Shown one piece after another: positions 10,718 to 35,844 of a DNA stretch of 64,000 nucleotides. The stretch is from Phycisphaerae bacterium (lineage in GTDB: Bacteria > Planctomycetota > Phycisphaerae > UBA1845 > Fen-1342). Both the position numbers and the translations under genes were made by a program. The notes under the pieces were generated by a model. It was not told the origin of the DNA. It saw nothing but the letters and a program-made list of their open reading frames with translations, and ran no database searches. Location: contig JANQNU010000070.1 of the NCBI GenBank assembly GCA_028279405.1, forward strand, positions 1 through 64,000. The letters are read 5' to 3'. Every line of letters starts with the position of its first letter. The stretch's first letter is position 1.

Positions 10718-10747
10718 ATCATAGTCACTGGTCACGTGACGGTCACG
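10718..10747 (-). promoter_or_regulatory. Late promoter with overlapping phage operator (site 2)
   Basis: On the minus strand GTGACC (10741-10746) and TATGAT (10718-10723) are 17 bp apart. The motif TGGTCACGTGACGGTCACG (10729-10747) overlays the -35 and spacer, as at 530-559. Here the motif also contains the perfect palindrome GTCACGTGAC and is followed by a further GGTCA half-site. It would drive the zinc-ribbon to virion-protein operon down to 1.9 kb. Confidence 0.65.
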
Positions 10748-10885: not shown

Positions 10886-11527
10886 TCAAGATGTCGTTGA
10901 CATCTTGACATCGTAGAACATCCGCGGACTGTCCTCCCCTCGCCACTTGTCCCCATCCTCGCAACGCCAGACCTGATCGATCGTCAGGTACTTCGGCGGA
11001 TCGTCGCCGGCGAACGGACGCACCCGGCTCGGCTCGAACCAGCACACCCGGTTGTTCGGCTGGGCCGCCAGCCGCCCGTCGTCCAGCTCGAGCACGTGAT
11101 GACACTTCCAACCGGCGTCGCCGGCGTTCTCCGCCGCTGCCGCGCCGTAGTAGTCCACCGTGAAACGATACGAGCCCGGGACCTGGCTGCGGTCCGCCAA
11201 CGCCACCCGTACCCGGCAATCCTGCAGATACGGGAACTCCACCACCGCCGCCCCGTACGCGAAGCAATCCCACAGCTGAACACGCCACGGCTGATCGGCC
11301 GGAACCTGCGGCGCCGTTCGTTTCGTCACCAGTGCGTGAATCGGCAACCGGCCAATCAGGGCCCCATTGTCCAGCAACACCCAAAAACACAGGCAGCGAC
11401 CGGGGATCGTCGCCACCGCAACCGCCATCCCCGCTTCGAAATCGCCGACGTACTGCCGCGCCATCCCGTGCAGGAACTCAGCACGTACGAAAACCGGGAA
11501 CTCGGGGATGGGTACGTTGAGCGTCAC
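10886..11527 (-). CDS. Phage late protein, unknown function
   Basis: A 213-residue protein (MTLNVPIPEFPVFVRAEFLHG) with several Cys and Trp residues and alternating strands (AVAVATIPGRCLCFWVLLDNG; YRFTVDYYGAAAAENAG; KCHHVLELDDGRL), suggesting a compact beta-rich fold. It begins by ATGA overlap with the coiled-coil gene. No family recognised; its position between portal and scaffold genes suggests a role in head assembly or DNA packaging. Confidence 0.6.
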   Translation of the reverse strand: MTLNVPIPEFPVFVRAEFLHGMARQYVGDFEAGMAVAVATIPGRCLCFWVLLDNGALIGRLPIHALVTKRTAPQVPADQPWRVQLWDCFAYGAAVVEFPYLQDCRVRVALADRSQVPGSYRFTVDYYGAAAAENAGDAGWKCHHVLELDDGRLAAQPNNRVCWFEPSRVRPFAGDDPPKYLTIDQVWRCEDGDKWRGEDSPRMFYDVKMSTTS

Positions 11528-12173: not shown

Positions 12174-14189
12174 TTAAGCGGCTGCCCCGCCCATTGCGGC
12201 TTGTCCAAGCTCAGCCAAACGGGCAAGTATCTCGTCCTCTGTCGGATCACCGTCGGGTAGCTGGTCGAGATGCGCGACCAGCTGGTCAATCTCCGCCTGA
12301 ATCGGATCCTGCGGGCCGGCCTGCGCCTGCGGCGCTCCCGCCGGCCCCGGTTGTGCGGCCATGCCCGGCGCCATCGCTCCCTGCTGCTGGGCAGCGGCCA
12401 TCGGTGGCGGCGGAGGAAGCGGAACCAGGATGTGCTCATGGCCGGCCACCTCCATTTTTTGCAAGTAGGATCGAAGCAGCGGCACAAACTGCAACGTGTA
12501 CCCCTCGCGGTTCACCCACGCCTCATAGTTCGGCAGCTGGGCGAGCGCCTGGTTCATTCCATTGATCTCGTCCGCCGTCGTCATCGCACTACGGACCTTC
12601 ACCTCGAAACCGTAGTCCAGCATCTCCCCGATCACCGGCCGACTCGCATCCAACGTCACGAACGACAACCCCGGCGGGCCCATGTTCTCGATCGGGAGCT
12701 GCATCCCATGCAGAAGGTCGATCTTCTCGTAGGTGATCGCCACGATCCCGCTATACGTCGCCGACGCGAAGTCATTCGCCGGGCTCACCTTGTGGTTCAT
12801 CCGCGAAAGCGATGCGCCCTCCTGCTGTTGCAACTGCATGTTGGTCGGATCGCCGCGCCGCCCCAAGCCCAACTGCATCTCGTCGATGCCACTTGCCCGA
12901 TCGAACGCCTGTTGATCGCGGTCCATGATCTCGAAGTGCTCGGGGCGCGTGCCGCCGATATCGATCGCCTTCACAACCCCGTCCAGGTCCTGCACATCAT
13001 CAAGACCCACGATTCCATTGTCGTCCGCGTTCGCGATCTGCTCGGTTACCTTCGCGCCCTCGCCACCGGCCGCCCCATTGTTGACGAGTAACAGGTGTTT
13101 CAGCTGGCGCCCGGCCTTGCTCGCGACCTGGTGCTGATCGTTGCGGTCCTTGCTGACCCGGAAGACCCGCTTGAACGGCGGGATCGGGTACATCTGCTTT
13201 TTCGACCACTCGAAACCCAGAATCAGAAACGGCAGCCCCTCGACCCCCAACGCTATCGGTTCACGCTTCAACACGCGTTCGTGGTCCTGGCGTTCCATCG
13301 CCAGCGTGATCCGCTCCGACGGCGTGCGCGTGTAGATGTCCACCAACCCGATCAGGTTGGCCTGGCCCTCATGTTCCGCGGACTTGTCGTTCGTTTCCTC
13401 TTCGGGCCAAACGGGCGCCGTCGTGAAACGCGGCGTCAACGGCACGTCCTTACCAAAGATCGCGCGGCATTCCTGCTGCGTTCGGTAGTACTCGACCGCG
13501 ATCCACTCCGCGCGGCGAATGTCGTTGTACGTCGGATCGAAGAGTACGCGGGTCGGATCGAGCGCCCGGGCCCACGGCATCCCCGCGTCGTGCTGTTCGC
13601 GCCGATCGGCCATCGAAAAGTCGATGTCCACCAAACTCAGCTGGCCACTGTCATCGGGATCGTCCTCGTTGCGGCCCCCCTCCCCCATTCCGCGGCGCAC
13701 TTCGAACCCCAGTTGCATGATCCCGACCGACCACATCGAGTTCATGTACGCTTCCTGCAGCTCACCCGGCATCCCGTTCGCGCCCTTCTGCAACCCCACC
13801 GCGCGACCGAGCGCCGTTGCCTGCATCCCCAGCATCTGCGCGAACTGGGTTTTCTCGTACGGATCCTCCCCAGCGCTGGCCTTGATCGGCTTGACCACGA
13901 CCTCCAGATCCTCGCCCACCAGGTGCGGCATCAAGACCGAAACGTACTCCGCAAGCCCGTTGCTGAAATCGCCGTCGCCGCGGTCGATCCGCTGTCCCTC
14001 GTATGCTTCGAGTAGCCGTTTCCACTCCTTCTCAGCATCCGATCGCTTGCGACGCGCCGCCTTCAACCGCTGCTGCCAGAACCGATAGTCCTGGATGCTC
14101 CGCATCCGGTCCTGTTGCTGCTGTTGCTGCTGCGGGTTCGCACCCTGCACGATCCCCGGAGCCATCATCGTCGGTACTGCCGCACTCAT
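12174..14189 (-). CDS. Phage portal protein
   Basis: A 671-residue protein that starts by ATGA overlap with the TerL stop, the usual place for a portal. It has an N-terminal Gln-rich stretch (residues 19-26), helical wing-like segments (RQRLKAARRKRSDAEKEWKRLLEAYEG), the motif PYEKTQFAQMLGMQATALGRA and a C-terminal Pro/Ala-rich tail with an acidic helical end (DPIQAEIDQLVAHLDQLPDGD). Size and layout resemble the large portals of P22-like or other podoviruses. It would form the dodecameric DNA gate to which TerL docks. No catalytic motif is expected. Confidence 0.75.
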   Translation of the reverse strand: MSAAVPTMMAPGIVQGANPQQQQQQQDRMRSIQDYRFWQQRLKAARRKRSDAEKEWKRLLEAYEGQRIDRGDGDFSNGLAEYVSVLMPHLVGEDLEVVVKPIKASAGEDPYEKTQFAQMLGMQATALGRAVGLQKGANGMPGELQEAYMNSMWSVGIMQLGFEVRRGMGEGGRNEDDPDDSGQLSLVDIDFSMADRREQHDAGMPWARALDPTRVLFDPTYNDIRRAEWIAVEYYRTQQECRAIFGKDVPLTPRFTTAPVWPEEETNDKSAEHEGQANLIGLVDIYTRTPSERITLAMERQDHERVLKREPIALGVEGLPFLILGFEWSKKQMYPIPPFKRVFRVSKDRNDQHQVASKAGRQLKHLLLVNNGAAGGEGAKVTEQIANADDNGIVGLDDVQDLDGVVKAIDIGGTRPEHFEIMDRDQQAFDRASGIDEMQLGLGRRGDPTNMQLQQQEGASLSRMNHKVSPANDFASATYSGIVAITYEKIDLLHGMQLPIENMGPPGLSFVTLDASRPVIGEMLDYGFEVKVRSAMTTADEINGMNQALAQLPNYEAWVNREGYTLQFVPLLRSYLQKMEVAGHEHILVPLPPPPPMAAAQQQGAMAPGMAAQPGPAGAPQAQAGPQDPIQAEIDQLVAHLDQLPDGDPTEDEILARLAELGQAAMGGAAA

Positions 14190-15877
14190 GCCCGGTGCCT
14201 CCTTCGCTTCGCTTCCTGGGCCATCGCCGCCACCGTGCCCGACGGCGCCGCTCCGGCACCCAACGGCCGATGCTTCAGCTTGTGCGACGCGTAGTACTCG
14301 ATGCAGTTCAACGCGTGGTTGTGCCCGTCGACGACCGGCTCGGTCTTCCCCTTGTGCTCACCAAGCTCCGGATCCACCTCCTTGTAACGGTGGTGCCGGA
14401 ACTCCCACACCGTCCATTCGCACTGCTCCGTATCCACGTAAAGCCGGATCAGGCCGTTCATCGGCGTGAGCAGCTCGCGCACTGCAAACCGTTGCGTCCG
14501 CTTGTCCGCGTTGCTCGCGGGCTGGGCGTGGATCCGCATCTGGCGCATCAGCTGGAGCATCGAGAGCTGTTTGGCCTGGTCGTGCTGCTTGGCGTACTCG
14601 TCCATGAGCACAACCCGCGGGCGCAAGTCGCCTTTGACCTTCTTCCAACGGTCAATCGTCGCCTGAATCGACTTGTTGCTGGCAAAGACGGCATCGATTG
14701 TGCCCAGCCCCTCGCCGTCGCGCGAGCCCGCTTCGATCGCGTTCTCGTACTCCTCGATCTCCGCCGGCGTCATCACACCCCGCAAGGACCAGCGCTTCAG
14801 GAAGATTTCCGCGGCGAGCTGCCCAACCGTACGCTCCTGCCGGTAGATCTCGTCATAGATGACCGCCACGTCACCCGGACCGATGTACCCGAACAACACC
14901 GCGCAGTGGTTCGCCCAGCCGGGATCGATCAGCTCGAAGCGGTTCGACCATGCCTCGGGAGACAACGGCGCCTCCACCGCCCGATGGTGCCGCTCGACGC
15001 TGAACTCGCCGTAGACCAGTCCGCCGCGGATCGTCGGCAGACCCTCGATCCGCATCCGCCGGTCCTTGCGACTCATCACGCCGGCGACCAGCTCGATCTC
15101 AGACGCGGAAAGATGCGGGTTGTCCGACATCTGCCCCTGGACAAGCCCCACCTGGTCGGCCGGGATCACGTTCTTCATGTCCGGCGAGAACTCGCGGTGG
15201 TAGAACAGGTCCTCGATGAACGCGTGTTCCCACAGCGCCGTCCAGATGATCGGCGCCCGATAGTCCACCGTCCGCGGGAGAACCGCGAGGAAGAACGGCG
15301 GCTTGATCGCTTCGTCGATCCACGCCAGGTGGATCTTCGACCCCTCGAACGTGATCAGCTTCTGTTCTTCGGACTTGAAGACGAACGCCGTGTCGTTCTT
15401 CAGCTCGGCAACGTGGTTGTGGAAGCCGCTTTTCTTGTCCCAGCGCGTGCCACGCTTCCACAACGCCGGCGGGATCCGCTCCCAAATCTCCTTCTGCTGC
15501 ACGTCGCGGGATTTCTCGAACGTCGTCGTGATGCACCAGATCGTCCGCGGCGGCCCCAGCGCCCAGCTGGCCGGGTTGCGGGGAAGGTCCGGCCAGTCGG
15601 TCCGCAAGAGCCCCGTGGCGACCTGCGCGCAGACGCAGCCGGCCCAGAACGTCTTACCGAAGCGATTGGCGCCGACCATCCCGATCAACTTCTTCACCTC
15701 GTCGAAATGACCCCACGCCTCGAGCTGCTTCGGTGTGAATTGCAGTCGCTCAATGCGACCGTCCGGAAGCTCCGTCCAACGCAGCGGGTTGTTCCGGAGC
15801 CGGATCCGCATCTCCTGCGCGATCTTCTCGCGCATCGCGTCGGTGATGACCGGCATGCCGTTCCGCGGACGTGCCAC
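14186..15877 (-). CDS. Terminase large subunit (ATPase/nuclease)
   Basis: A 563-residue packaging motor. A variant Walker A, GANRFGKT, is at residues 69-76 and Walker B IHLAWIDEA at 182-190 (Asp188, Glu189). The C-terminal RNase H-like nuclease shows its first acidic residue in FELIDPGW (Asp318) and further acidic candidates at YDEIYRQ and DEYAKQHD. TerL cuts concatemeric DNA and pumps it through the portal. It follows the small-terminase-like gene by six bases and overlaps the portal start. The long open frame on the opposite strand is a GC-bias shadow. Confidence 0.92.
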   Translation of the reverse strand: MARPRNGMPVITDAMREKIAQEMRIRLRNNPLRWTELPDGRIERLQFTPKQLEAWGHFDEVKKLIGMVGANRFGKTFWAGCVCAQVATGLLRTDWPDLPRNPASWALGPPRTIWCITTTFEKSRDVQQKEIWERIPPALWKRGTRWDKKSGFHNHVAELKNDTAFVFKSEEQKLITFEGSKIHLAWIDEAIKPPFFLAVLPRTVDYRAPIIWTALWEHAFIEDLFYHREFSPDMKNVIPADQVGLVQGQMSDNPHLSASEIELVAGVMSRKDRRMRIEGLPTIRGGLVYGEFSVERHHRAVEAPLSPEAWSNRFELIDPGWANHCAVLFGYIGPGDVAVIYDEIYRQERTVGQLAAEIFLKRWSLRGVMTPAEIEEYENAIEAGSRDGEGLGTIDAVFASNKSIQATIDRWKKVKGDLRPRVVLMDEYAKQHDQAKQLSMLQLMRQMRIHAQPASNADKRTQRFAVRELLTPMNGLIRLYVDTEQCEWTVWEFRHHRYKEVDPELGEHKGKTEPVVDGHNHALNCIEYYASHKLKHRPLGAGAAPSGTVAAMAQEAKRRRHRA

Positions 15878-16441: not shown

Positions 16442-16459
16442 CGCTCCGTCGCCGGCTGC

Positions 16460-16478
16460 TGGTCACGTAACGGTCATC
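16460..16478 (+). promoter_or_regulatory. Phage operator motif, site 3
   Basis: TGGTCACGTAACGGTCATC matches the motif at 541 and 10729 and lies 19 bp ahead of the small-terminase start. Unlike those sites there is no TATGAT at the equivalent distance. A possible -10 TATAGT (minus strand, about 16489-16494) sits on the other side, so the motif would cover the transcription start rather than the -35. Confidence 0.5.
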
Positions 16479-20104: not shown

Positions 20105-20108
20105 TTCA

Positions 20109-20324
20109 GCGTCGGAAGGTCGTCGGTCGGTGCTTTGCCATATCACGCCGACAGCTTCGCTTTCAAGCCGCGGCGTGCGTTGCGCCGCGCTTCCGACGCG
20201 GAGCCTTACTTCACCAACTCCCAGCGTCGGAAGGTCGTCGGCCGGGAGCCGCACTCCAGCGGCCGGCTTCGCCATCCACCGTGACGAACGGGCCGCGCCG
20301 CGCGTTGCGGCGCGCTTCCGACGC
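20109..20324. repeat. Two tandem units closed by 10-bp inverted repeats
   Basis: Unit A spans 20109-20199 and unit B 20224-20324. Each begins GCGTCGGAAGGTCGTCGG and ends CTTCCGACGC GGAGCCTT. GCGTCGGAAG and CTTCCGACGC are exact reverse complements, so each unit can fold back on itself. The interiors differ more than the ends. They lie in the noncoding stretch 19,928-20,442 between the terminator and the next gene. Confidence 0.6.
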
Positions 20325-20343
20325 GGAGCCTTTTCGGTCGGGC

Positions 20344-20423
20344 GGTCGGGGTCGGGTTTAGGAATGGGAGTCCTTGTCCCGACCTGTGGGTCGACGACGC
20401 GGGTTCGAGTCCCGCCCCGACCA
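20344..20423 (+). ncRNA. tRNA-like structured segment B
   Basis: An acceptor-like 7-bp helix GGTCGGG/CCCGACC (20344-20350 with 20416-20422), discriminator A423 and a perfect T arm GCGGG-TTCGAGT-CCCGC (20399-20415). The 48 bases between have no D arm. They can form AGGA-ATGGGAG-TCCT, a seven-base loop with U at position 33 and GGG in the anticodon place, plus a CGACC/GGTCG variable-arm-like hairpin. Alternatively GTCGGG (20351) can pair with CCCGAC (20378). It ends about 20 bp before a gene. Confidence 0.4.
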
Positions 20424-21511: not shown

Positions 21512-21777
21512 CGTCCCTGACCAAGGAACAGCGCCGCGCGCTCACGCTCGTGAACCGACGCTGGGGCGTTGATCAGAGCTTCACGCCGCGCGAGTTTGCC
21601 CATGAGGTTTGGGGGCGCCCTGACAAACGACAGGGAAGCGCCTGGCTCTCGAAGCTTCGCCAGCGCGGATTGGTGCTCGCGAACGGTTCGCGACGCGGAG
21701 TCCACCGCCGAATCGTCTCGCATTATCGACTCTCAAACTACGCACGCGATCTACTCAAGGAGGCGTTCGTCTCGTGA
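21508..21777 (+). CDS. Small winged-helix-like phage protein
   Basis: An 89-residue protein (MTSLTKEQRRALTLVNRRWGVDQSFTPREFAHEVWGRPDKRQGSAWLSKLRQRGLV). The layout FTPREFAHEVWG / GSAWLSKLRQRGLVLANGSRRGVHRRIVSHYRLS reads as a winged helix with a recognition helix and a basic wing. It is overlapped at both ends by its neighbours and lies immediately before the replication-initiator-like gene. A DNA-binding accessory role is inferred. Confidence 0.6.
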   Translation: MTSLTKEQRRALTLVNRRWGVDQSFTPREFAHEVWGRPDKRQGSAWLSKLRQRGLVLANGSRRGVHRRIVSHYRLSNYARDLLKEAFVS

Positions 21778-22874
21778 GCCTGCGCGTGTCCTACTTCAAA
21801 GAGGAGCCCGAGAAGCCCCGAAGGCCGGAGCTGCCGGCGGCGATCGCCGCGTCAGCGGCCTTTCTGGCGCTGCCTGCGGGCCAACAGGAGACGCTACGCA
21901 AGATCGCAGCCCAGATGACCAAGGAGGATGGCGGATCGCTCCACGGGCGTGTCAGCGGTCGAGAGATCGCAACGCTATTCGAGCCGAATCGTGCGGCAAC
22001 GACGATCCGCAACCACATTGGCAACCTGATAGTGGCGGGCCTTCTCATTCCAACAGGGACGCGCCTCAAACAAGGAGGCACGTGCCGGACTTACCGCATC
22101 CCGGGTAAGCCGCACCCAGCAGCGGCGCCGGGTTCACATTGCAGCGACGTGTCCGGTCCGATTGGCCAGCAGCAGCGACCGCGCGCCGGGCCACCCCCGG
22201 ACACAACCCGCGCTACCCGGGTTACCCGCGCACCTTACCCGGGTAACCCGGGTTACCCGCGCACATCGGCCGCTGGCGCTGCCGAGAGCGGGGATTCTGC
22301 GCCGCTCGCACGCGGCCATGATCATGATCATGACTTTTTTAGCGCAAAAACTCATGACATGAAGCCAGGAAACGTCCTTGGCAAGAAGACGGGAGCGACT
22401 GACTACGGCGCGCCTGGGGAACCGGAAGCGGATCGGGAGTTCTACCGACGGCAGGCCGGGGCTCAGGCGGAGCGCGACCGTCGCTGGTCGGATCAACCGA
22501 CCCCGCGGCGGCAAAAGAGCGGCCGCGGCTGCCCCATTCTGGGGCACATCAAGCGGGCGGATCTGCTCAATGACGAACGACTCACCGCGCTGTTCCAGCG
22601 AGCGAAGCAGGCGGGCCTGGTGGGTTCGGGCGACGGATCCTGGTTCAACTTCGTAGCGTTTGCCGAGCACTGTCTGATCGTGCCAGCCGTCAAGAACGCA
22701 CCCGCTCTCTTCGCGGACACGATCCGCAAGAACAAGGACAGGCAGATGATCCTCGTGTGCAACGAGGCAGAAGAGAGCGCCAGCCTGCGGCTGACCGACA
22801 CGCCGCTACGCCGTGACAAACGCGGCCGCCTACACCGCCCCGACGACGACTACGACCCCTACGACGAGGAGTGA
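21774..22874 (+). CDS. Winged-helix replication initiator-like protein
   Basis: A 366-residue protein started at GTG 21774 (GTGA overlap). The N-terminal ~95 residues form a winged helix (QETLRKIAAQMTKEDGG...SGREIATLFEPNRAATTIRNHIGNLIVAGLLIPTG) as in phage initiators and transcription regulators. A low-complexity linker follows (about 110-215), and a helical C-terminal domain (KRADLLNDERLTALFQRAKQAG...). The linker DNA carries 19-bp direct repeats and an AT-rich patch, an arrangement like the lambda O gene with its internal origin. I infer initiation of phage replication; a regulator is the main alternative. Confidence 0.6.
   Translation: MSLRVSYFKEEPEKPRRPELPAAIAASAAFLALPAGQQETLRKIAAQMTKEDGGSLHGRVSGREIATLFEPNRAATTIRNHIGNLIVAGLLIPTGTRLKQGGTCRTYRIPGKPHPAAAPGSHCSDVSGPIGQQQRPRAGPPPDTTRATRVTRAPYPGNPGYPRTSAAGAAESGDSAPLARGHDHDHDFFSAKTHDMKPGNVLGKKTGATDYGAPGEPEADREFYRRQAGAQAERDRRWSDQPTPRRQKSGRGCPILGHIKRADLLNDERLTALFQRAKQAGLVGSGDGSWFNFVAFAEHCLIVPAVKNAPALFADTIRKNKDRQMILVCNEAEESASLRLTDTPLRRDKRGRLHRPDDDYDPYDEE
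22215..22264. repeat. Candidate origin iterons inside the initiator gene
   Basis: ACCCGGGTTACCCGCGCAC occurs twice as exact direct repeats (22215-22233 and 22246-22264), 31 bp apart, with the palindrome TTACCCGGGTAA (22235-22246) between them. The encoded peptide is low complexity, suggesting that selection may act on the DNA. Confidence 0.55.
22317..22366. other. AT-rich patch beside iterons, candidate unwinding element
   Basis: A local AT-rich run in an otherwise GC-rich gene: CATGATCATGATCATGAC followed by a T6 run, A5 run and CATGACATG. It lies about 50 bp after the iterons and contains repeated TGATCA. The encoded peptide is the odd HDHDHDFFSAK. Confidence 0.45.
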
Positions 22875-23368: not shown

Positions 23369-23776
23369 ATGCCGCGCCGCTTCGCAAATGGAACGACGAT
23401 CACTGCGACCAAAACGGCCGGCGACATCGCCGCCCTACTGGCCCGCCACGGGATCGACGACTACGCGCACGGACGCTCCGATGGCGCCGTCCAACTGTGC
23501 TTCATGCACAACAAAATCCCCTATCGCTTCGACGTGCCGATGCCCGACATCACGGACGAACGGAAACGCGATCGGGAAACCAACCGCCGGTGGCGCGTCC
23601 TGTACGCGCTCGTGAAAGCGAAGCTGGTCGCGATCGAGGAGGGGCTAGAAACGTTCGAAGAAGCGTTCGCCATGACGATCGTGACCCCGAACGGCGACAG
23701 GCTACGCGATCGACTCCTGCCTGAGATCGCGAACGGCAAGGCCCAACAACCAAACCTGAAACTGCTCGGAGGGTGA
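23369..23776 (+). CDS. Phage early protein, unknown
   Basis: A 135-residue protein (MPRRFANGTTITATKTAGDIAALLARHGIDDYAHG) with a beta-rich start, a helical centre (RVLYALVKAKLVAIEEGLETFEEAFAMTIVTPNGD) and a conserved-looking AMTIV segment. This resembles small uncharacterised phage proteins lying beside DNA-metabolism genes. It precedes the Mini-A-like gene by nine bases and is probably in the same transcript. Confidence 0.6.
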   Translation: MPRRFANGTTITATKTAGDIAALLARHGIDDYAHGRSDGAVQLCFMHNKIPYRFDVPMPDITDERKRDRETNRRWRVLYALVKAKLVAIEEGLETFEEAFAMTIVTPNGDRLRDRLLPEIANGKAQQPNLKLLGG

Positions 23777-23785
23777 CACGAAGAG

Positions 23786-24679
23786 ATGCCATTTATCACC
23801 TACACCAAGCGACGGTTCGCAGACAAGACGCTACAAGTAATCTCGCAGGCCAACGGCATTCTTGAAGAGTACGCGTCGCAGGGGTTCACAATCACGTTGC
23901 GCCAGCTCTACTATCAGTTCGTCGCAAGGGGGCTGATACCGAACACCGACAAGAGCTACAACCGACTGGGGTCGATTATCAATGGTGCGCGGCTCGCTGG
24001 CCTCATCGACTGGAACCATTTAATCGATCGCACGAGGAACGTTCAGTCCCGCCAGCATTTCGAGGGCGCCGAGCACGCGTTACGTCGACTCGCCGCATGG
24101 TATCACGTCGATCTATGGAAGCGACAAAGGGTACGCCCCGAAGTCTGGATCGAAAAAGATGCGCTGGTCGGCGTAATTGAGGGCGTGTGCCAAGAACTGG
24201 ACGTGCCCTTCTTTTCCTGCCGCGGGTACACGAGCCAAAGCGAAATGTGGGCCGCGGGGCAGCGTCTCTTACAACACCAAGATGACGGGTACCACACCTA
24301 CATCGTCCACCTTGGCGACCACGACCCAAGCGGTATCGATATGAGCCGCGACATATTCGACCGCCTCGCTCTGTTCATGGGCGGGACTGATTTCGTTCGC
24401 ATCGCTTTGAACATGAATCAAGTGGAACGTTACCGGCCCCCGCCCAATCCGGCGAAGGTCACCGACAGTAGAGCGGCCACGTACATTCGACAATATGGGC
24501 GCGAAAGCTGGGAGCTAGACGCGCTCGACCCAGCAACGATGGCCGATCTCATTCGCTCGACAATCGAGCCGCTCCGGGACGACGACACCTACCAAGAGGA
24601 TCTAGCTCACAAAGAGGACGTCAAGCAAAAGCTTGCGCGACTTGCTCAAGAATGGGACGAATCGGAGGAAGCAGGATGA
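23786..24679 (+). CDS. Spo11/topoisomerase VI-A-like 'Mini-A' protein
   Basis: A 297-residue protein with the two hallmarks of the Spo11/TopoVI-A family. A 5Y-CAP-like segment TITLRQLYYQFVARG has candidate catalytic Tyr42/Tyr43. A TOPRIM domain has the acidic residue in VWIEKDAL (Glu123), the block FFSCRGYTSQSE and the DxD motif LGDHDPSGID (Asp178, Asp180). TopoVI-A makes paired DNA breaks through a 5'-phosphotyrosine link, with metal held by the TOPRIM acids. No ATPase B subunit is nearby, as in the known stand-alone Mini-A proteins of plasmids and phages. Its likely task is phage DNA topology, replication or recombination. Confidence 0.75.
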   Translation: MPFITYTKRRFADKTLQVISQANGILEEYASQGFTITLRQLYYQFVARGLIPNTDKSYNRLGSIINGARLAGLIDWNHLIDRTRNVQSRQHFEGAEHALRRLAAWYHVDLWKRQRVRPEVWIEKDALVGVIEGVCQELDVPFFSCRGYTSQSEMWAAGQRLLQHQDDGYHTYIVHLGDHDPSGIDMSRDIFDRLALFMGGTDFVRIALNMNQVERYRPPPNPAKVTDSRAATYIRQYGRESWELDALDPATMADLIRSTIEPLRDDDTYQEDLAHKEDVKQKLARLAQEWDESEEAG

Positions 24680-25038
24680 CAACGACCGCCGTCACCAACA
24701 TGACTCACGAAGAATGGCTCGCCGAAGCCGAACGCCGCTTCGGCAAAGATCCGGCCGACTGGAAATTCGTATGCCCCGTCTGCGAGAACGTGGCCGCCGC
24801 GCGGGACTTCTTCCCGTTCTTCGACGAAAAGGGCCAAGCCGCGCAGGCCGCAACAAACGAGTGCATCGGACGCCATGTCAAACCGCGGCGTGGGGCCTTC
24901 GACCAGAGCAAAGGCGAACCGGACAAACCGTGCAACTACGCAGGCTACGGACTCATTCGGCTCTCGCCGATCCGTGTCATCTTTGAGGGCGAGGAAGTTC
25001 ACTCGTTCGCGTTCGCCGATGAGGGATCCAATGGCTAA
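24676..25038 (+). CDS. VVA0879-family Cys-rich phage protein
   Basis: A 120-residue protein started at ATG 24676, overlapping the Mini-A stop as ATGA and preceded by GGAGGAAG. It has FVCPVCENVAAARDFF, a later single Cys in NECIGRH and a final DKPCNYAGYGLI. This is the pattern of the VVA0879 family found in phage and mobile-element genomes. The four Cys probably bind zinc. Biochemical role unknown. Confidence 0.7.
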   Translation: MTTTAVTNMTHEEWLAEAERRFGKDPADWKFVCPVCENVAAARDFFPFFDEKGQAAQAATNECIGRHVKPRRGAFDQSKGEPDKPCNYAGYGLIRLSPIRVIFEGEEVHSFAFADEGSNG

Positions 25039-26560: not shown

Positions 26561-26981
26561 CCCTGTCTACTACGAATGGCAGGAGGTTGCGGAGCTGCTC
26601 GGTCCGCCTGGCCGGCCGCTGACGGCGAAGACGCTGCGCGCATGGGCCAAGGCGGGCAAGGGGCCGCAGCGCGTCAAGATCGGCCGCCGGCCCGTTTACT
26701 TACGCGACGAGGTGGACGAGTGGCTCGTACACGGAGGGGACGATCATCCGGACCTAGCTCCAACGTCGGCAGCGGCGGAAGCGCTGGCATCGGGAACTCC
26801 TGCGCAACCCGCCGCGCCAGCGGCACCGTCTGCACGTAATGGTCCGTGGTCACCCGCGGTGACGAATGGTCCAGCGCGTGCTGGGCAGCCTGAATGGCTT
26901 GATCTATCGCGACACCCATCCCGCAGCCGCCGCGGAGGTCGTGGAAAGTCCGGTTCACGTTCGCGGCGGAGCAAATCTTAG
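26553..26981 (+). CDS. Excisionase-like HTH protein overlapping integrase gene
   Basis: A 142-residue protein. Residues 1-62 (YEWQEVAELLG, LTAKTLRAWAKAGKGPQRVKIGRRPVYLRDEVDEWL) are an AlpA/excisionase-type helix-turn-helix. The remaining ~80 residues are Ala/Pro/Ser/Arg-rich and encoded antisense to the integrase C-terminal domain: 308 bp overlap with no earlier in-frame stop. The tail probably has little structure. As small winged-helix proteins next to integrases commonly act in excision, Xis is the likely role. Confidence 0.65.
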   Translation: MSDPVYYEWQEVAELLGPPGRPLTAKTLRAWAKAGKGPQRVKIGRRPVYLRDEVDEWLVHGGDDHPDLAPTSAAAEALASGTPAQPAAPAAPSARNGPWSPAVTNGPARAGQPEWLDLSRHPSRSRRGGRGKSGSRSRRSKS

Positions 26982-28131
26982 CCCACTGGAGCTTCTGAAA
27001 ATGCTCCCAGAAAAACAGGTACTGCATACCGGCCGGAAGGTATGAGATCCGTTGCTCGATGCAGTCGTTCGCGAGGGGCGGAAGGCCGATCGGCTTCTCT
27101 TTGAAGGTCTTCGCGGTGTAGCTGAACAGCAGCCCCGCCCCCTTGTCCTCCGGTTCCTGCGCCAACTGCACAATACCGAACGCCTCCGGCTCCCGGACCG
27201 CCGGCGGAAGGTGTTGGGTCTGGCCGATGCGGGTCACGTTGCGCCGCGTGACCTGGATTCCGAAGTGCGTGCGCAGCAACACGGATTGGCGCACACCCGT
27301 TAGCCAAGCGAGCAGGATCAGCAGATACCAGCCCTGCGGATCTTCGACGTTGAGACCTCGCTTCTCGCGTTCATCATCGCCGAGCACCTCGAGCAGTCGC
27401 ATGATCTCGCGCGTTTCGGCTGACAGCTCCACACGCGTGACCGGAGGCGGCTTGCGGATCGTAGCCGCCGGGCTCTTGTCAATGTACGAGCGCTCCAGGC
27501 ACCAGTTGAAGAACGCCTTGACCGCGGCGATCTCCTTGCGGACGGTCATCTGTCCCGGGATGAAGGGGTTCCCCTCGACGTCGAGCGGCAGCCCCGCCTT
27601 GCGGTCCACGAGCCAGCGGTCGCAATGCGCCGGCGCGATCTCGTCGAGCCCGAGTAGATGATCGCTGCGGGCCTGGAGCAGCTGGTAGAACGTCGCGAGG
27701 ATACGGCGGTTCTCGGTGCGGGTCTTGGCCTTGAGCGCAGCCAGGTGGTTCTGATCGTACTCGTCGAGAACGTCGGCGAGGGATCGGCTGGTGAATGGTG
27801 AGGCCCACGGGTTAAGCATGTTCTCGAGCTCGGCGATCGCCGCGTCGCGCATTTTCTTGGTCGCATAAAGCTTGCGGCACGGCTTCCCGGTCGTGGGGTC
27901 GTTCCAGTTGGCGGCGTACTTTCGTTTGCGGTGGACGATCTGGACGGAACGTGCGGTGGGCTCGACCTTCTTCACCATGCGGTCGGCCTCAGCGCGCGTC
28001 TTGAAGCTCTCTTGGTGACGTTTGCCGGCTCGGCTGATCCAGATCACTTCGAAGCGCGGTTGTCGGGTCGTGGGCCACACCTTGCGGTTGGTGACACGAT
28101 GGTAACGGGTGTTCGCGTGGGGATGCGTCAC
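26674..28131 (-). CDS. int: Phage tyrosine integrase
   Basis: A 485-residue tyrosine recombinase. Catalytic residues visible: Arg281 in LTGVRQSVLLR, His397 and Arg400 in HDLR, His422 in LDHSS and the nucleophile Tyr432 in TTDHYVQ. Residues about 110-225 form the core-binding SAM-like domain (ADVLDEYDQNHLAALKAKTRTENRRIL). The N-terminus has an AP2-like arm-binding segment (PRFEVIWISRAGKRHQESFKTRAEAD). It reads away from the tRNA-Thr attachment site 570 bp to its right, as is usual for tRNA-targeting phages. A long Pro/Arg-rich tail (50 residues after Tyr432) lies opposite the excisionase-like gene. Confidence 0.92.
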   Translation of the reverse strand: MTHPHANTRYHRVTNRKVWPTTRQPRFEVIWISRAGKRHQESFKTRAEADRMVKKVEPTARSVQIVHRKRKYAANWNDPTTGKPCRKLYATKKMRDAAIAELENMLNPWASPFTSRSLADVLDEYDQNHLAALKAKTRTENRRILATFYQLLQARSDHLLGLDEIAPAHCDRWLVDRKAGLPLDVEGNPFIPGQMTVRKEIAAVKAFFNWCLERSYIDKSPAATIRKPPPVTRVELSAETREIMRLLEVLGDDEREKRGLNVEDPQGWYLLILLAWLTGVRQSVLLRTHFGIQVTRRNVTRIGQTQHLPPAVREPEAFGIVQLAQEPEDKGAGLLFSYTAKTFKEKPIGLPPLANDCIEQRISYLPAGMQYLFFWEHFQKLQWAKICSAANVNRTFHDLRGGCGMGVAIDQAIQAAQHALDHSSPRVTTDHYVQTVPLARRVAQEFPMPALPPLPTLELGPDDRPLRVRATRPPRRVSKRAGGRS

Positions 28132-28575: not shown

Positions 28576-28594
28576 TGTGACCGTCGCATGACCA
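28576..28594 (-). promoter_or_regulatory. Phage operator motif, site 5
   Basis: On the minus strand TGGTCATGCGACGGTCACA, 56 bp from site 4 and same orientation. Paired with site 4 this may bind a regulator cooperatively near the integration end of the prophage. No obvious -10 element is placed for plus-strand transcription. Confidence 0.5.
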
Positions 28595-28697
28595 GTTAGG
28601 TGAATGGTAACCTGAATAATTGCGCACCGATTTGCGCAAGCCGCATTCATGCAACGACTTAGAGCCCGTCCGCGAACCCCCGCTGAACTGCTCTCTC

Positions 28698-28744
28698 TCG
28701 GTTTTGTAAACCGCAGGTTGTCGGTTCGAGTCCGACCGGTGGCT
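28698..28744 (+). tRNA. tRNA-Thr(TGT) 3' half, attachment site remnant
   Basis: Contains the anticodon arm from 28698 with loop TTTGTAA (anticodon TGT, 28705-28707), T arm GTCGG-TTCGAGT-CCGAC (28720-28736), the 3' acceptor strand CGGTGGC and discriminator T744. Upstream there is no matching GCCACCG, D arm or TAGCTCAG, so only the 3' half exists. The first anticodon-stem pair is already mismatched (T698-C714), which marks the crossover side. This is the attR-type duplicated core; the intact tRNA-Thr should lie left of the window. Confidence 0.85.
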
Positions 28745-31594: not shown

Positions 31595-33631
31595 GTGAAA
31601 CGAACCATGTTTGTAGTACTGACCGCGTTGACCGCGTCCATGACGTTCACGGCAGTCGCCGCGGATACCTGTCTGCCACAGCAGATCCACGTCGTCGACA
31701 CGCTGGTCGACGAACTTGACGGCCCCGGCGCCGGCACCGGCTTTTCACTGCGTGAAGCGATCGCCGAGAGCCAGACCGGCGACCTGATCGTATTCGACGA
31801 GGCGCTGGCTGGCGGCGTGATCGTCCTCACACTCGACCAACTGGAAATCACGACATCCCTGACCATCGACGGCGACGTCAACGGCGACGGCTCGGCCGAC
31901 ATCACACTGGACGGACAGAACAACACGCACATGATCGACTACACCGGCGCCCCAGACACCCACCTGCGCATCCAGCACATCAACTTCCGCAACGGGTTCG
32001 CCGAGGTCGGCTCCGCAATCTTCCACGAGAGCGGCTGGCTCGAATTGGCGCGCTGCGGCGTCTTCGACAACGAAGCCCTCACCGGCGGTACGATTCAAGG
32101 CAACGTCACCACCCTGCGAATCATGAGCTGTGTATTCGAACGTAACGTCGGCGGCTCAGGCGCCATCACCGTAATCGATCCAGTGCAGCCGATCGTCGTT
32201 CCGATCGTGATCGACAACTGCGTATTCGAGGACAACTACGGTGTCAGTAACGGCGGCGCGGTCTTCGTCGCCGGATACGGACGTCAGGACCAGGGGCTCC
32301 GCGTTTCAAACTCGGTCTTTCGACACAACACAGCCGAGTTCGGCGGAGCGATGTTCACCGCCCATATCGGCTATTCGATCGACCGCTGCCTTTTCGTAGA
32401 GAACGGCCTACCCAACGCGATCAGCACGACTTCCGCAAAATTCGGCGGGGCCATCGTCCAGTTCGGCGGCGGCGCGACAATTCGTTTTTCCCGGTTCGAA
32501 CGAAACGCGTCCACCGACAGCGGAGGCGCTCTCTTCAACGCCACCTCCGGCGAAGGACACTATGCTGACATGCAACACGTGACGTTCGTTGCAAACGACG
32601 CCGACTACGGCGGCGCGGTGCAGCTGGCATCCAACCTCGACGGCGAGGTGCAATTCGCGCACTGCACGCTGTTGAACAACACTGCAGCGTTCGGCGCCAG
32701 TATCCAGGCGGACGGCCACGGAAGTAATATTGGCCGGCTCGTAATCGATCACACGGTCGTCGGAGACACCGGTCTGCCACACGAGCCTCCGGCGCCGCAC
32801 CTGACTAGCTCCTTCGATGGCGGCCACAACCTGTTCACGGAGTTATCGGTTTCGAGGCTGCCCAACACGCCGAACATCGTGGGCGGCTTCTATAACGACG
32901 CAACCGATCCAACCGACGACCGGCCCGCGTCGAACAGTGATAGCCGCGACGCGGGCGACGCGGGTCTTGTCGCCGGCCAGGACGGTGTTGCGTTCGTCGA
33001 CCTCGACGGCAACCAGCGCGTCGCCGGCCCGGGAATCGATATCGGCGCTTACGAACTCGACGCTACGGGCGTCGCCGGCCCGACCGTTACGTCCGTCACC
33101 CGACTCGACGCCGACCCGACAACCGACAACTGCGTTCGGTTCCAGGTGACGTTCAGTGCGCCCATCGACGGTGCGTCGACGGAAGATTTCGTTGCCGTGC
33201 CGAGCTGTGAACTCGAGAACGTCATCGTCAAGGAAGTGAACGCGGCCGCAGCCGACACACTCACGGTGACCGTCACGACCGGTACGGGTGACGGTACGCT
33301 TCGCCTCGACGTGCGCGACGATGATTCGATCGTCGACGCAGTCACGCGCGTCCCGCTCGGCGGCTTCGGCGACGGCAACGGCGACTTCACCGAAGGCGAG
33401 ATCTACAGCGTCCGTGCTGGCGAGGCCCCCTGCTTGCCCGACCTGGCCGGCGACCTCGACCACGACCAGGACATCGACATGGACGACTACAACCAGTTCC
33501 TTGCCACCTACGGCAAGGGTCTCGGCGACGCCGACTACAACCCCGACGCCGACTTCGACGGCGACGACTTCGTCGGAATGACCGATTTCGGCATCTGGTA
33601 CAGCCACTATCTGGCCTTCGCCAGCAGCTAG
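31595..33631 (+). CDS. Secreted CSLREA/beta-helix protein with dockerin-like tail (copy 1)
   Basis: A 678-residue protein from GTG 31595 (MKRTMFVVLTALTASMTFTAVAAD), behind GAGGAAAG. After the signal peptide, residues about 30-75 carry the CSLREA-type motif GFSLREAIAES and then LTIDGDVNGDGSADITLDG. A right-handed beta-helix follows to about residue 480 (repeats such as CVFERNVGGSGAI, CVFEDNYGVSNGGAVF, SVFRHNTAEFGGAMF). Next comes a beta domain (VTSVTRLDADPTTDNCVRFQVTF) and a dockerin-like end (DLDHDQDIDMDDYNQFLATYGKGLGDADYNPDADFDGDD). It is 96% the length of, and tandem to, the paralogue at 33814. Confidence 0.75.
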   Translation: MKRTMFVVLTALTASMTFTAVAADTCLPQQIHVVDTLVDELDGPGAGTGFSLREAIAESQTGDLIVFDEALAGGVIVLTLDQLEITTSLTIDGDVNGDGSADITLDGQNNTHMIDYTGAPDTHLRIQHINFRNGFAEVGSAIFHESGWLELARCGVFDNEALTGGTIQGNVTTLRIMSCVFERNVGGSGAITVIDPVQPIVVPIVIDNCVFEDNYGVSNGGAVFVAGYGRQDQGLRVSNSVFRHNTAEFGGAMFTAHIGYSIDRCLFVENGLPNAISTTSAKFGGAIVQFGGGATIRFSRFERNASTDSGGALFNATSGEGHYADMQHVTFVANDADYGGAVQLASNLDGEVQFAHCTLLNNTAAFGASIQADGHGSNIGRLVIDHTVVGDTGLPHEPPAPHLTSSFDGGHNLFTELSVSRLPNTPNIVGGFYNDATDPTDDRPASNSDSRDAGDAGLVAGQDGVAFVDLDGNQRVAGPGIDIGAYELDATGVAGPTVTSVTRLDADPTTDNCVRFQVTFSAPIDGASTEDFVAVPSCELENVIVKEVNAAAADTLTVTVTTGTGDGTLRLDVRDDDSIVDAVTRVPLGGFGDGNGDFTEGEIYSVRAGEAPCLPDLAGDLDHDQDIDMDDYNQFLATYGKGLGDADYNPDADFDGDDFVGMTDFGIWYSHYLAFASS

Positions 33632-33813: not shown

Positions 33814-35844
33814 GTGAAACGAACCACGTTTGTTGTACTGACCGCGCTGACCGCTTACATGACGTTCTCGGCGGCAATCGCCGCGGATATCTGTCCGCCA
33901 CAACAGATCCACATCGTCGACACGCTGATCGACGAGCTTGACGGTCCCGACCAAGGTACCGGCCTGTCGCTACGGGAGGCGGTTGCGGCCGCCGGTCCCG
34001 ACGACGTGATCCTGTTCGATCCGGCGCTCGCCGACGGCACGATCTTCTTCACGCTCGGGCCGATCGATGTTACGACGTCGCTCACCATCGACGGTGACGT
34101 CAACAACGACGGCTCGGCCGACATCACCCTTGATGGCCAGAGCGCCACCCGCATGATCGAATACGCCGGCGCTCCGGACGATCGCCTGCGAATCCAGCAC
34201 GTGGACTTCCGCCACGGTCGCGCCAACCGTGAACCGGACGAATCCGGGGGCGCAGTCCGCCACGCAAGCGGCTGGCTCGAGCTGCACCGCTGCGGGTTCT
34301 ACGACAACTTCGCCTTGCGCCAAGGCGGCGCAGTGAGTAGCCACGTCCCCACGGTTCAGGTGGTCAAGTGCGTCTTCGAGCGAAACAAGGCGAATAGAGG
34401 CGGAGCGTTCCGCACGCTCCAGTCGTCCGTTACGACGCCGATCATCATCGACGGCTGCCGGTTCGAGCAAAACGTGTCTCGTTTTTTTGGAGGAGCGTTG
34501 ATTTTAGATGATCCTGGAACAACTTCCGCGCTGCGGCTCACCGACTCGACATTCCGAGGAAACGTCACCGAAGACGAGTTAAGTGGAGGTGGCGCCATAT
34601 ACGCAACAAACGCGGAGATCGCGCGCTGCATGTTTGTCGCAAATCGCAGTCCGGGGATCTTTGGGGGTGGCGCGACGCTGCTCGACGGCAACTGCACGAT
34701 CCGAAACACGCGTTTTGAAGACAACTGGGCAGACCAGGCGGGCGGCGCAATCGCCCACGGACTAATAAGCGGAGATACGCTCGATATCGATCACGTTGCA
34801 TTTGTCGCCAACGCGGCGACGTTCGGCGCTGTCTTGCAAATAACCACAACCACGGAGGTCCACTTCAAGCATTGCACGCTGCTGAACAATACTGCGGTAG
34901 GCCTCGCGAACGAAATCTATGTGTTTGCACTTGACCCTAGATTGGTATTCGACCACACGGTTGTCGGGCAAAGTGGGCCACCCCACGACCCACCCTTGGC
35001 TATGATTGACGGGTTTGACTTCGAATTCGTCAGCGCTGGGCACAACCTGTTCACCAGGCTGACCATGGATGACCTCGGCCCCACCGACATCCTCGGCGGC
35101 TTCTACAACGACGCAGTCGACCCAACCGACGACCGGCCCGCGTCGAACAGTGATAGCCGTGACGCCGGCGATGCAAGCCTCGTCGCTGGTCAGGGTGGTG
35201 TCGCTTTCTTTGACCTCGACCGCAACCAGCGCGTCGCCGGCCCGGGGATCGACATCGGCGCCTACGAACGCGACGCCCCGTCGACCCTCGTCAGCCCGTC
35301 CGTTACGTCCGTCACCCGACTCGACCCGAACCCCACGACCGACGGCTGTGTCCGCTTTCAGGTGACGTTCAGCGCTCCGATCGACGGCGGATCGCCCGAG
35401 GACTTCGTCGCCGTGACGAGTTGTGAACTCGCGGGCCCGGTGGTCAAGGATGTAGCCGCGTCCGGCCCCGACACGCTCACCGTCACCGTCACGACCGGCG
35501 TCGGCGACGGCACACTGGGGCTCGACGTGCGCGACGATGATTCGATCATCGACGCGATCACGCGCGTCCCGCTTGGCGGTTTCGGCAATGGCAACGGCGA
35601 CTTCACCGGAGGCGAGACCTACAGCGTCCGGGCCGGCGACGCGCCGTGTACGCCGAACCCGGCTGACCTGGATCACGACCAGGACGTCGACATGGACGAC
35701 TACAACCTGTTCCTCGCCACCTACGGCAAGGGTGTCGGCGACGCCGGCTACAACGCTGATGCCGACTATGACGGCGATGACTTCGTCGGAATGATCGATT
35801 TCGGTATCTGGTACGACCACTATCTCGGGTTCGCAAACAGCTGA
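33814..35844 (+). CDS. Secreted CSLREA/beta-helix protein with dockerin-like tail (copy 2)
   Basis: A 676-residue paralogue of the preceding gene from GTG 33814 (GGAGGAAAG upstream). It shares signal region (KRTTFVVLTALTAYMTFSAAIAAD), motif GLSLREAVAAAG, LTIDGDVNNDGSADITLDG, beta-helix (residues about 120-420) and the tail DLDHDQDVDMDDYNLFLATYGKGVGDAGYNADADYDGDD. Nucleotide identity is highest at the 5' end and in the C-terminal third and drops in the beta-helix, suggesting duplication with later divergence there. Both are predicted cell-surface or extracellular, with calcium-binding loops at the end. Confidence 0.75.
   Translation: MKRTTFVVLTALTAYMTFSAAIAADICPPQQIHIVDTLIDELDGPDQGTGLSLREAVAAAGPDDVILFDPALADGTIFFTLGPIDVTTSLTIDGDVNNDGSADITLDGQSATRMIEYAGAPDDRLRIQHVDFRHGRANREPDESGGAVRHASGWLELHRCGFYDNFALRQGGAVSSHVPTVQVVKCVFERNKANRGGAFRTLQSSVTTPIIIDGCRFEQNVSRFFGGALILDDPGTTSALRLTDSTFRGNVTEDELSGGGAIYATNAEIARCMFVANRSPGIFGGGATLLDGNCTIRNTRFEDNWADQAGGAIAHGLISGDTLDIDHVAFVANAATFGAVLQITTTTEVHFKHCTLLNNTAVGLANEIYVFALDPRLVFDHTVVGQSGPPHDPPLAMIDGFDFEFVSAGHNLFTRLTMDDLGPTDILGGFYNDAVDPTDDRPASNSDSRDAGDASLVAGQGGVAFFDLDRNQRVAGPGIDIGAYERDAPSTLVSPSVTSVTRLDPNPTTDGCVRFQVTFSAPIDGGSPEDFVAVTSCELAGPVVKDVAASGPDTLTVTVTTGVGDGTLGLDVRDDDSIIDAITRVPLGGFGNGNGDFTGGETYSVRAGDAPCTPNPADLDHDQDVDMDDYNLFLATYGKGVGDAGYNADADYDGDDFVGMIDFGIWYDHYLGFANS

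Follow-up and report, generated by a model that had tools for sequence, protein, structure and literature searches.

Mini-A gene and its prophage

The window, the whole 64,000-nucleotide stretch of Phycisphaerae DNA that we analyzed, begins at base 1 of contig C38. Its left part carries terminase, head, and tail genes on the minus strand. Positions 23786-24679 on the plus strand hold an intact open reading frame of 297 residues, with an ATG start and no internal stops, that encodes a stand-alone relative of the Topo VI A subunit (Top6A) and Spo11, here called Mini-A. We re-read this frame and its translation, and the coordinates, strand, and motifs reported for it in a first-pass annotation of the DNA are correct. 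TLRQLYYQ (residues 37-44) is followed by VWIEKDAL (120-127) and LGDHDPSG (176-183). An MPxIxY start is common to relatives and fits the chosen start codon. The features of the locus are listed below.

14186..15877, minus strand: prophage terminase large subunit (phrog_2, E = 5.6e-14)
21774..22874, plus strand: candidate replication protein, very weakly assigned (phrog_391, replication initiation O-like, E = 0.068, sub-significant)
23369..23776, plus strand: phage protein phrog_17260, no assigned function, upstream neighbor ending 9 bp before Mini-A
23786..24679, plus strand: Mini-A, stand-alone Top6A/Spo11-like protein, 297 aa (PHROG 6247, homology to phage NP1, AlphaFold2 fold)
24676..25038, plus strand: phage protein phrog_32023, no assigned function, downstream neighbor with a 4-bp overlap with the Mini-A stop
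26674..28131, minus strand: prophage integrase (phrog_1, E = 1.6e-27)
28697..28742, plus strand: right attachment repeat, 46 bp, 3' half of tRNA-Thr (UGU), by repeat identity
540-557, 10728-10745, 16459-16476, minus strand, and 28578-28595, plus strand: window copies of the repeat TGACCGTNACRTGACCAG
84854, plus strand, and 88320, minus strand, of contig C29 (G000:C29), beyond the tRNA: further copies of TGACCGTNACRTGACCAG

The integrase, the terminase, the tRNA-Thr attachment repeat, and a set of phage-only 18-bp repeats all agree with the earlier reading of the region as a prophage. The repeat at 28697-28742 is identical to the last 46 bp of an intact tRNA-Thr on contig C29 (G000:C29:84742-84778 and flanks), the left end. 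With at most one mismatch allowed, the 5.6 Mb genome has the asymmetric 18-bp repeat at six sites, all of which lie in the inferred prophage. Together, the attachment repeat and the prophage-only 18-bp repeats point to a prophage of about 46 kb that is split over two contigs. Its extent is most likely from 84.8 kb of C29 to the end of that contig (102.0 kb) plus positions 1 to 28.7 kb of the window, and we infer that C29 joins C38. Each 18-bp repeat has two TGACC half-sites 11 bp apart. The copies lie near gene starts, mostly in the orientation of the late genes, and two of them sit 4 bp upstream of TATGAT. They are possible dispersed operators or phage promoters, and their layout resembles the stoperators of mycobacteriophage L5.

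The first-pass annotation had also placed the gene beside a replication initiator. This is not established, as the frame at 21774-22874 has only the phrog_391 match, with no Pfam match and no phage relative. Elsewhere in the prophage, a tRNA-Pro (GGG) at 20336-20423 has an Rfam score of 28.9 against a gathering score of 29, and is adjoined by direct repeats of 41 bp and 24 bp at 20107-20332. A gene of the phage late region, at 10886-11527, matches phrog_3704, annotated as ferredoxin and host takeover (E = 1e-39). Just past the prophage, two large host proteins are tandem paralogs (31607-33631 and 33814-35844) whose DNA is 76-90% identical in stretches.

Family, fold, and catalytic residues of the window protein

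The first-pass annotation had read the protein as TopoVI-A-like and had suggested profile search and structure prediction as checks, and both agree with that reading. PHROG 6247, "DNA topoisomerase," matches residues 5-295, the whole length of the protein, at an E value of 4.6e-107, though the Pfam profile TP6A_N stays below its curated cut-off (12 bits against 26). Pfam by itself would therefore have missed the kinship. An NCBIfam search with the window protein gave no match, and sequence-profile searches against the PDB found no related chain. A tblastn search shows 46% identity to gp49 of Pseudomonas phage NP1 at 96% coverage (E = 3e-74); a review takes NP1 as its Mini-A example (PMC7614492, Figure 4). 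A protein annotated "Topo Mini-A" on the archaeal circular plasmid LC711082 is 27.3% identical (E = 7e-23).

In all, tblastn matched 76 phage records, 75 of them at 80% coverage or more, and 48 plasmid records, mostly from Streptomyces. Scanning viral and genome contigs with the single sequence found almost nothing. An alignment-guided scan found hundreds, with at least 552 confirmed relatives on viral contigs and 182 on genome contigs; the closest among the viral-contig matches listed (L036) is 67% identical. Given the PHROG 6247 match and these phage, plasmid, and viral-contig relatives, the resemblance is not due to chance. The window protein is almost certainly a member of Mini-A, a family known from earlier work and frequent in phages, and it adds one to many hundred. 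We also considered an OLD nuclease or a DnaG-type primase and rejected both, as there is no ABC ATPase or primase Pfam match and PHROG 6247 covers the whole length.

Pairwise comparison of the window family with Top6A by hhalign gave a weak sequence signal (P = 0.0062). The profile alignment to Top6A scores 28.6, above all 60 column-shuffled decoys (maximum 23.7). In motif terms, hhalign pairs TLRQLYYQ, IEKDA, and DHDPSG of the window protein with SIRDLFYN, IEKGA, and DNDPWG of the host Top6A. An AlphaFold2 model built from an 84-sequence alignment has a mean pLDDT of 87.6 and a pTM of 0.77. A Foldseek search of the PDB places Methanosarcina mazei Topo VI-A on top (E = 5.9e-4, prob 1.00, 290 columns), and it is the sole match under an E value of 0.001. 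VIA-align ranks 1d3y first, with a Z score of 10.1 over 216 residues at 4.7 Å (model residues 11-263), and five further Topo VI-A entries align over 216-225 residues with Z scores of 8.1-9.0. The Topo VI-A chains cover model residues 8-264, which comprise the CAP (winged helix) and TOPRIM domains. Unrelated Rossmann-like chains reach Z scores of up to 9.3, yet they align with the TOPRIM part alone, over about 100 residues. It is thus the CAP-TOPRIM pairing that sets the Topo VI-A matches apart. About 40 residues of the N-terminal part of Top6A are absent, as model residue 7 aligns to residue 42 of 2zbk_A.

The candidate active site is formed by three segments.

23894..23917, plus strand: CAP motif TLRQLYYQ, residues 37-44, with Arg39 and Tyr43 invariant; Tyr43 codon at 23912-23914
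24152..24154, plus strand: Glu123 codon, TOPRIM glutamate of WIEKDA, 84/84, aligned to IEK of the host Top6A
24317..24325, plus strand: Asp178-His179-Asp180 codons, TOPRIM acid pair of GDHDPSG, 84/84, aligned to DNDPWG of the host Top6A

Arg39, Tyr43, Glu123, Lys124, Asp178, Asp180, Ser182, and Gly183 are invariant in all 84 relatives. Position 42 is Tyr in 79 of them and Phe in five. When archaeal, Streptomyces, and Rubrobacter plasmid members are added, Tyr43, Glu123, Asp178, and Asp180 are still invariant, and Trp or Phe appears at position 42. The last Tyr of SIRDLFYN in the host Top6A aligns with Tyr106 of M. mazei in an alignment to PDB sequences, and Tyr106 is the catalytic tyrosine of Topo VI-A (PMC11302465). 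The first-pass annotation had put forward Tyr42 or Tyr43. Of the pair, Tyr43 is most likely the nucleophile, judging by its invariance, its register with Tyr106, and the replacement of Tyr42 by Phe or Trp.

Partner genes and the host Topo VI

Profiles PF02518, PF13589, and PF09239 were searched over the genome, and neither prophage stretch contains a match; all matches lie elsewhere. The remark that no GHKL partner is visible in the window is thus right for the prophage. The host chromosome encodes both Topo VI subunits on different contigs: a Top6B frame of 667 aa (G000:C81:19706-23194, L196; PF09239, E = 2.8e-59) and a Top6A frame of 427 aa (G000:C57:150230-153454, L197). A B subunit missing from the window is therefore not missing from the cell. 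Of 199 genomes sampled from the phylum, 91 have Top6A. A phmmer search of the flanks of 195 Mini-A loci found no Top6B-like frame. Three planctomycete chromosomes (L016, L017, and L018) carry distant homologs that are 24-27% identical, in open frames of 478-573 aa that are longer than Mini-A, and these may represent a chromosomal branch carrying an additional domain.

We clustered the open reading frames within 6 kb of the 195 loci and found no conserved partner gene among them. The best real shared neighbor is an SNF2 helicase, at 18 of the 195 loci at most; larger clusters were rejected as overlapping-frame artefacts within Mini-A or its fragments. Comparing the Pfam content of near (≤1.5 kb) and far (5-9.5 kb) genes gave no clear enrichment, recombination genes included. 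In named phages, Mini-A often lies among genes of nucleic-acid metabolism. The NP1 gene order is ligase, Mini-A, Sak4, and Cas4 exonuclease; Cas4 and recombinase genes lie near Mini-A in Fizzles, a DNA polymerase gene in RDJL2, and polymerase and helicase genes in Phobos. In some named phages, a ThyX gene is also among the surroundings. A 15-kb plasmid of Paenibacillus durus (L028) encodes a Mini-A with 51% identity to that of the window, along with a zonular-occludens-toxin-type ATPase, and no replication gene is recognized in its annotation.

Possible roles and comparison with known systems

Topo VI cleaves the two DNA strands with a dimer of its A subunits, using tyrosine for the transesterification and Mg2+ held by the TOPRIM acids, and cutting normally requires the ATP-bound B subunit (PMC5922973). 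According to a review, no archaeal Topo VIII or Mini-A had been characterized (PMC8185306). We picture Mini-A as the cleavage core of a type IIB topoisomerase, CAP plus TOPRIM, that would work with neither the N-terminal part of Top6A nor an ATPase subunit. If it is analogous to Topo VI-A and Spo11, it would form a dimer in which Tyr43 of one protomer is expected to meet the metal site across the interface. With Mg2+ on Glu123, Asp178, and Asp180, both strands of the duplex would be cut, and Mini-A would stay bound to the 5' ends. The chemistry would be that of Topo VI, at Tyr43, but free of ATP control. Such reversible or controlled cleavage might untangle or open replicating phage DNA. Family, fold, and the conservation of all catalytic residues are shown above; dimerization, cleavage chemistry, and biological role we infer from this analogy. 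A role as an ATP-independent, reversible or controlled double-strand cutter of phage DNA in replication and recombination seems to us the likeliest reading, and somewhat probable. The nucleic-acid genes around Mini-A in named phages speak for it, and the lack of a conserved neighbor across the 195 loci speaks against it. Since Topo VI needs its B-subunit ATPase to cut, Mini-A may also be silent or need another partner.

That partner could be the chromosomal Top6B, borrowed in trans by a phage-encoded alternative A subunit. The host has the required Top6B, and the phylum often has Top6A, as described above. However, the first ~40 residues of Top6A are missing from Mini-A, and relatives occur in phages of Pseudomonas, Salmonella, Listeria, and Curtobacterium, hosts not known for Topo VI. 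Given this truncation and the spread over phages of many hosts, borrowing is possible, not favored, and we consider it very unlikely. Loss of activity is less likely still. The annotation of some relatives goes no further than "DNA binding protein," which would suit a degenerate or non-catalytic DNA-binding relic, but every catalytic residue is invariant over very divergent hosts. This conservation implies selection for catalysis and makes a relic extremely unlikely.

If Mini-A is an enzyme, its cuts could also be irreversible. One such reading makes Mini-A a metal-dependent nuclease with a TOPRIM domain, like JetD and MksG, which would form no covalent tyrosine link and might target DNA of the host or of competitors. 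In 4 of 16 relatives, DUF2399 leads the Pfam matches (best E = 1.6e-4), and MksG (8b7f, Z score 7.9) and JetD (7til, Z score 7.2) do match the TOPRIM part of the model. Their matches are limited to that part (residues 108-262), however, the CAP-like domain of MksG lacks a candidate tyrosine (PMC10123090) whereas Tyr43 is invariant in Mini-A, and no SMC-like operon adjoins the window gene. We regard this nuclease as unlikely. A one-way break maker like Spo11, starting recombination-dependent replication or circularization of the phage genome, has more in its favor, as recombinase, ligase, and Cas4 exonuclease genes adjoin Mini-A in several phages. This association is not general across the 195 loci, though, and the window gene has no recognizable recombinase next to it, which leaves the one-way reading possible yet doubtful. 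Its boldest form, in which Mini-A is a viral, ATPase-free Spo11 whose programmed, tyrosine-linked double-strand breaks launch recombination-dependent phage replication, appears to us rather unlikely.

In human cells, Spo11 initiates meiotic recombination, and Mini-A is among its widest-spread relatives. A B-type partner is believed to be required before Topo VI or Spo11 can cut. A conserved, catalytically intact, and partner-less Mini-A would thus reveal what a minimal break-making core can do, and the present lysogen, with a complete Topo VI in its host, offers a place to ask if Mini-A borrows the host B subunit. If true, an ATPase-free viral Spo11 would give prokaryotes a counterpart to meiotic break formation, one that needs no B subunit.

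Among known systems, MksG and JetD (Wadjet nuclease) have a similar TOPRIM domain, but MksG lacks the catalytic CAP tyrosine (PMC10123090) and the pair work with an SMC complex that is absent here. Topo VIII, which is also borne by mobile elements, shares the cleavage core of type IIB (PMC7614492), but has a fused ATPase part, whereas the 297-residue Mini-A has none and no GHKL gene lies beside it. Top6A (1d3y, 2zbk, and 2q2e) and Spo11 share the order of CAP then TOPRIM, and the motifs RxxYY, (V/I)EK, and DxDPxG align. Unlike Top6A, the window protein lacks the N-terminal part and a B partner gene and falls under Pfam cut-offs, and its family has a C-terminal region of its own (PPPNPAK...SWELDAL). 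NP1 gp49 differs in its setting, between ligase and Sak4 rather than between two phage genes of no assigned function, but at 46% identity it is of the same length class, has the same CAP and TOPRIM motifs, and is likewise phage-borne with no B subunit.
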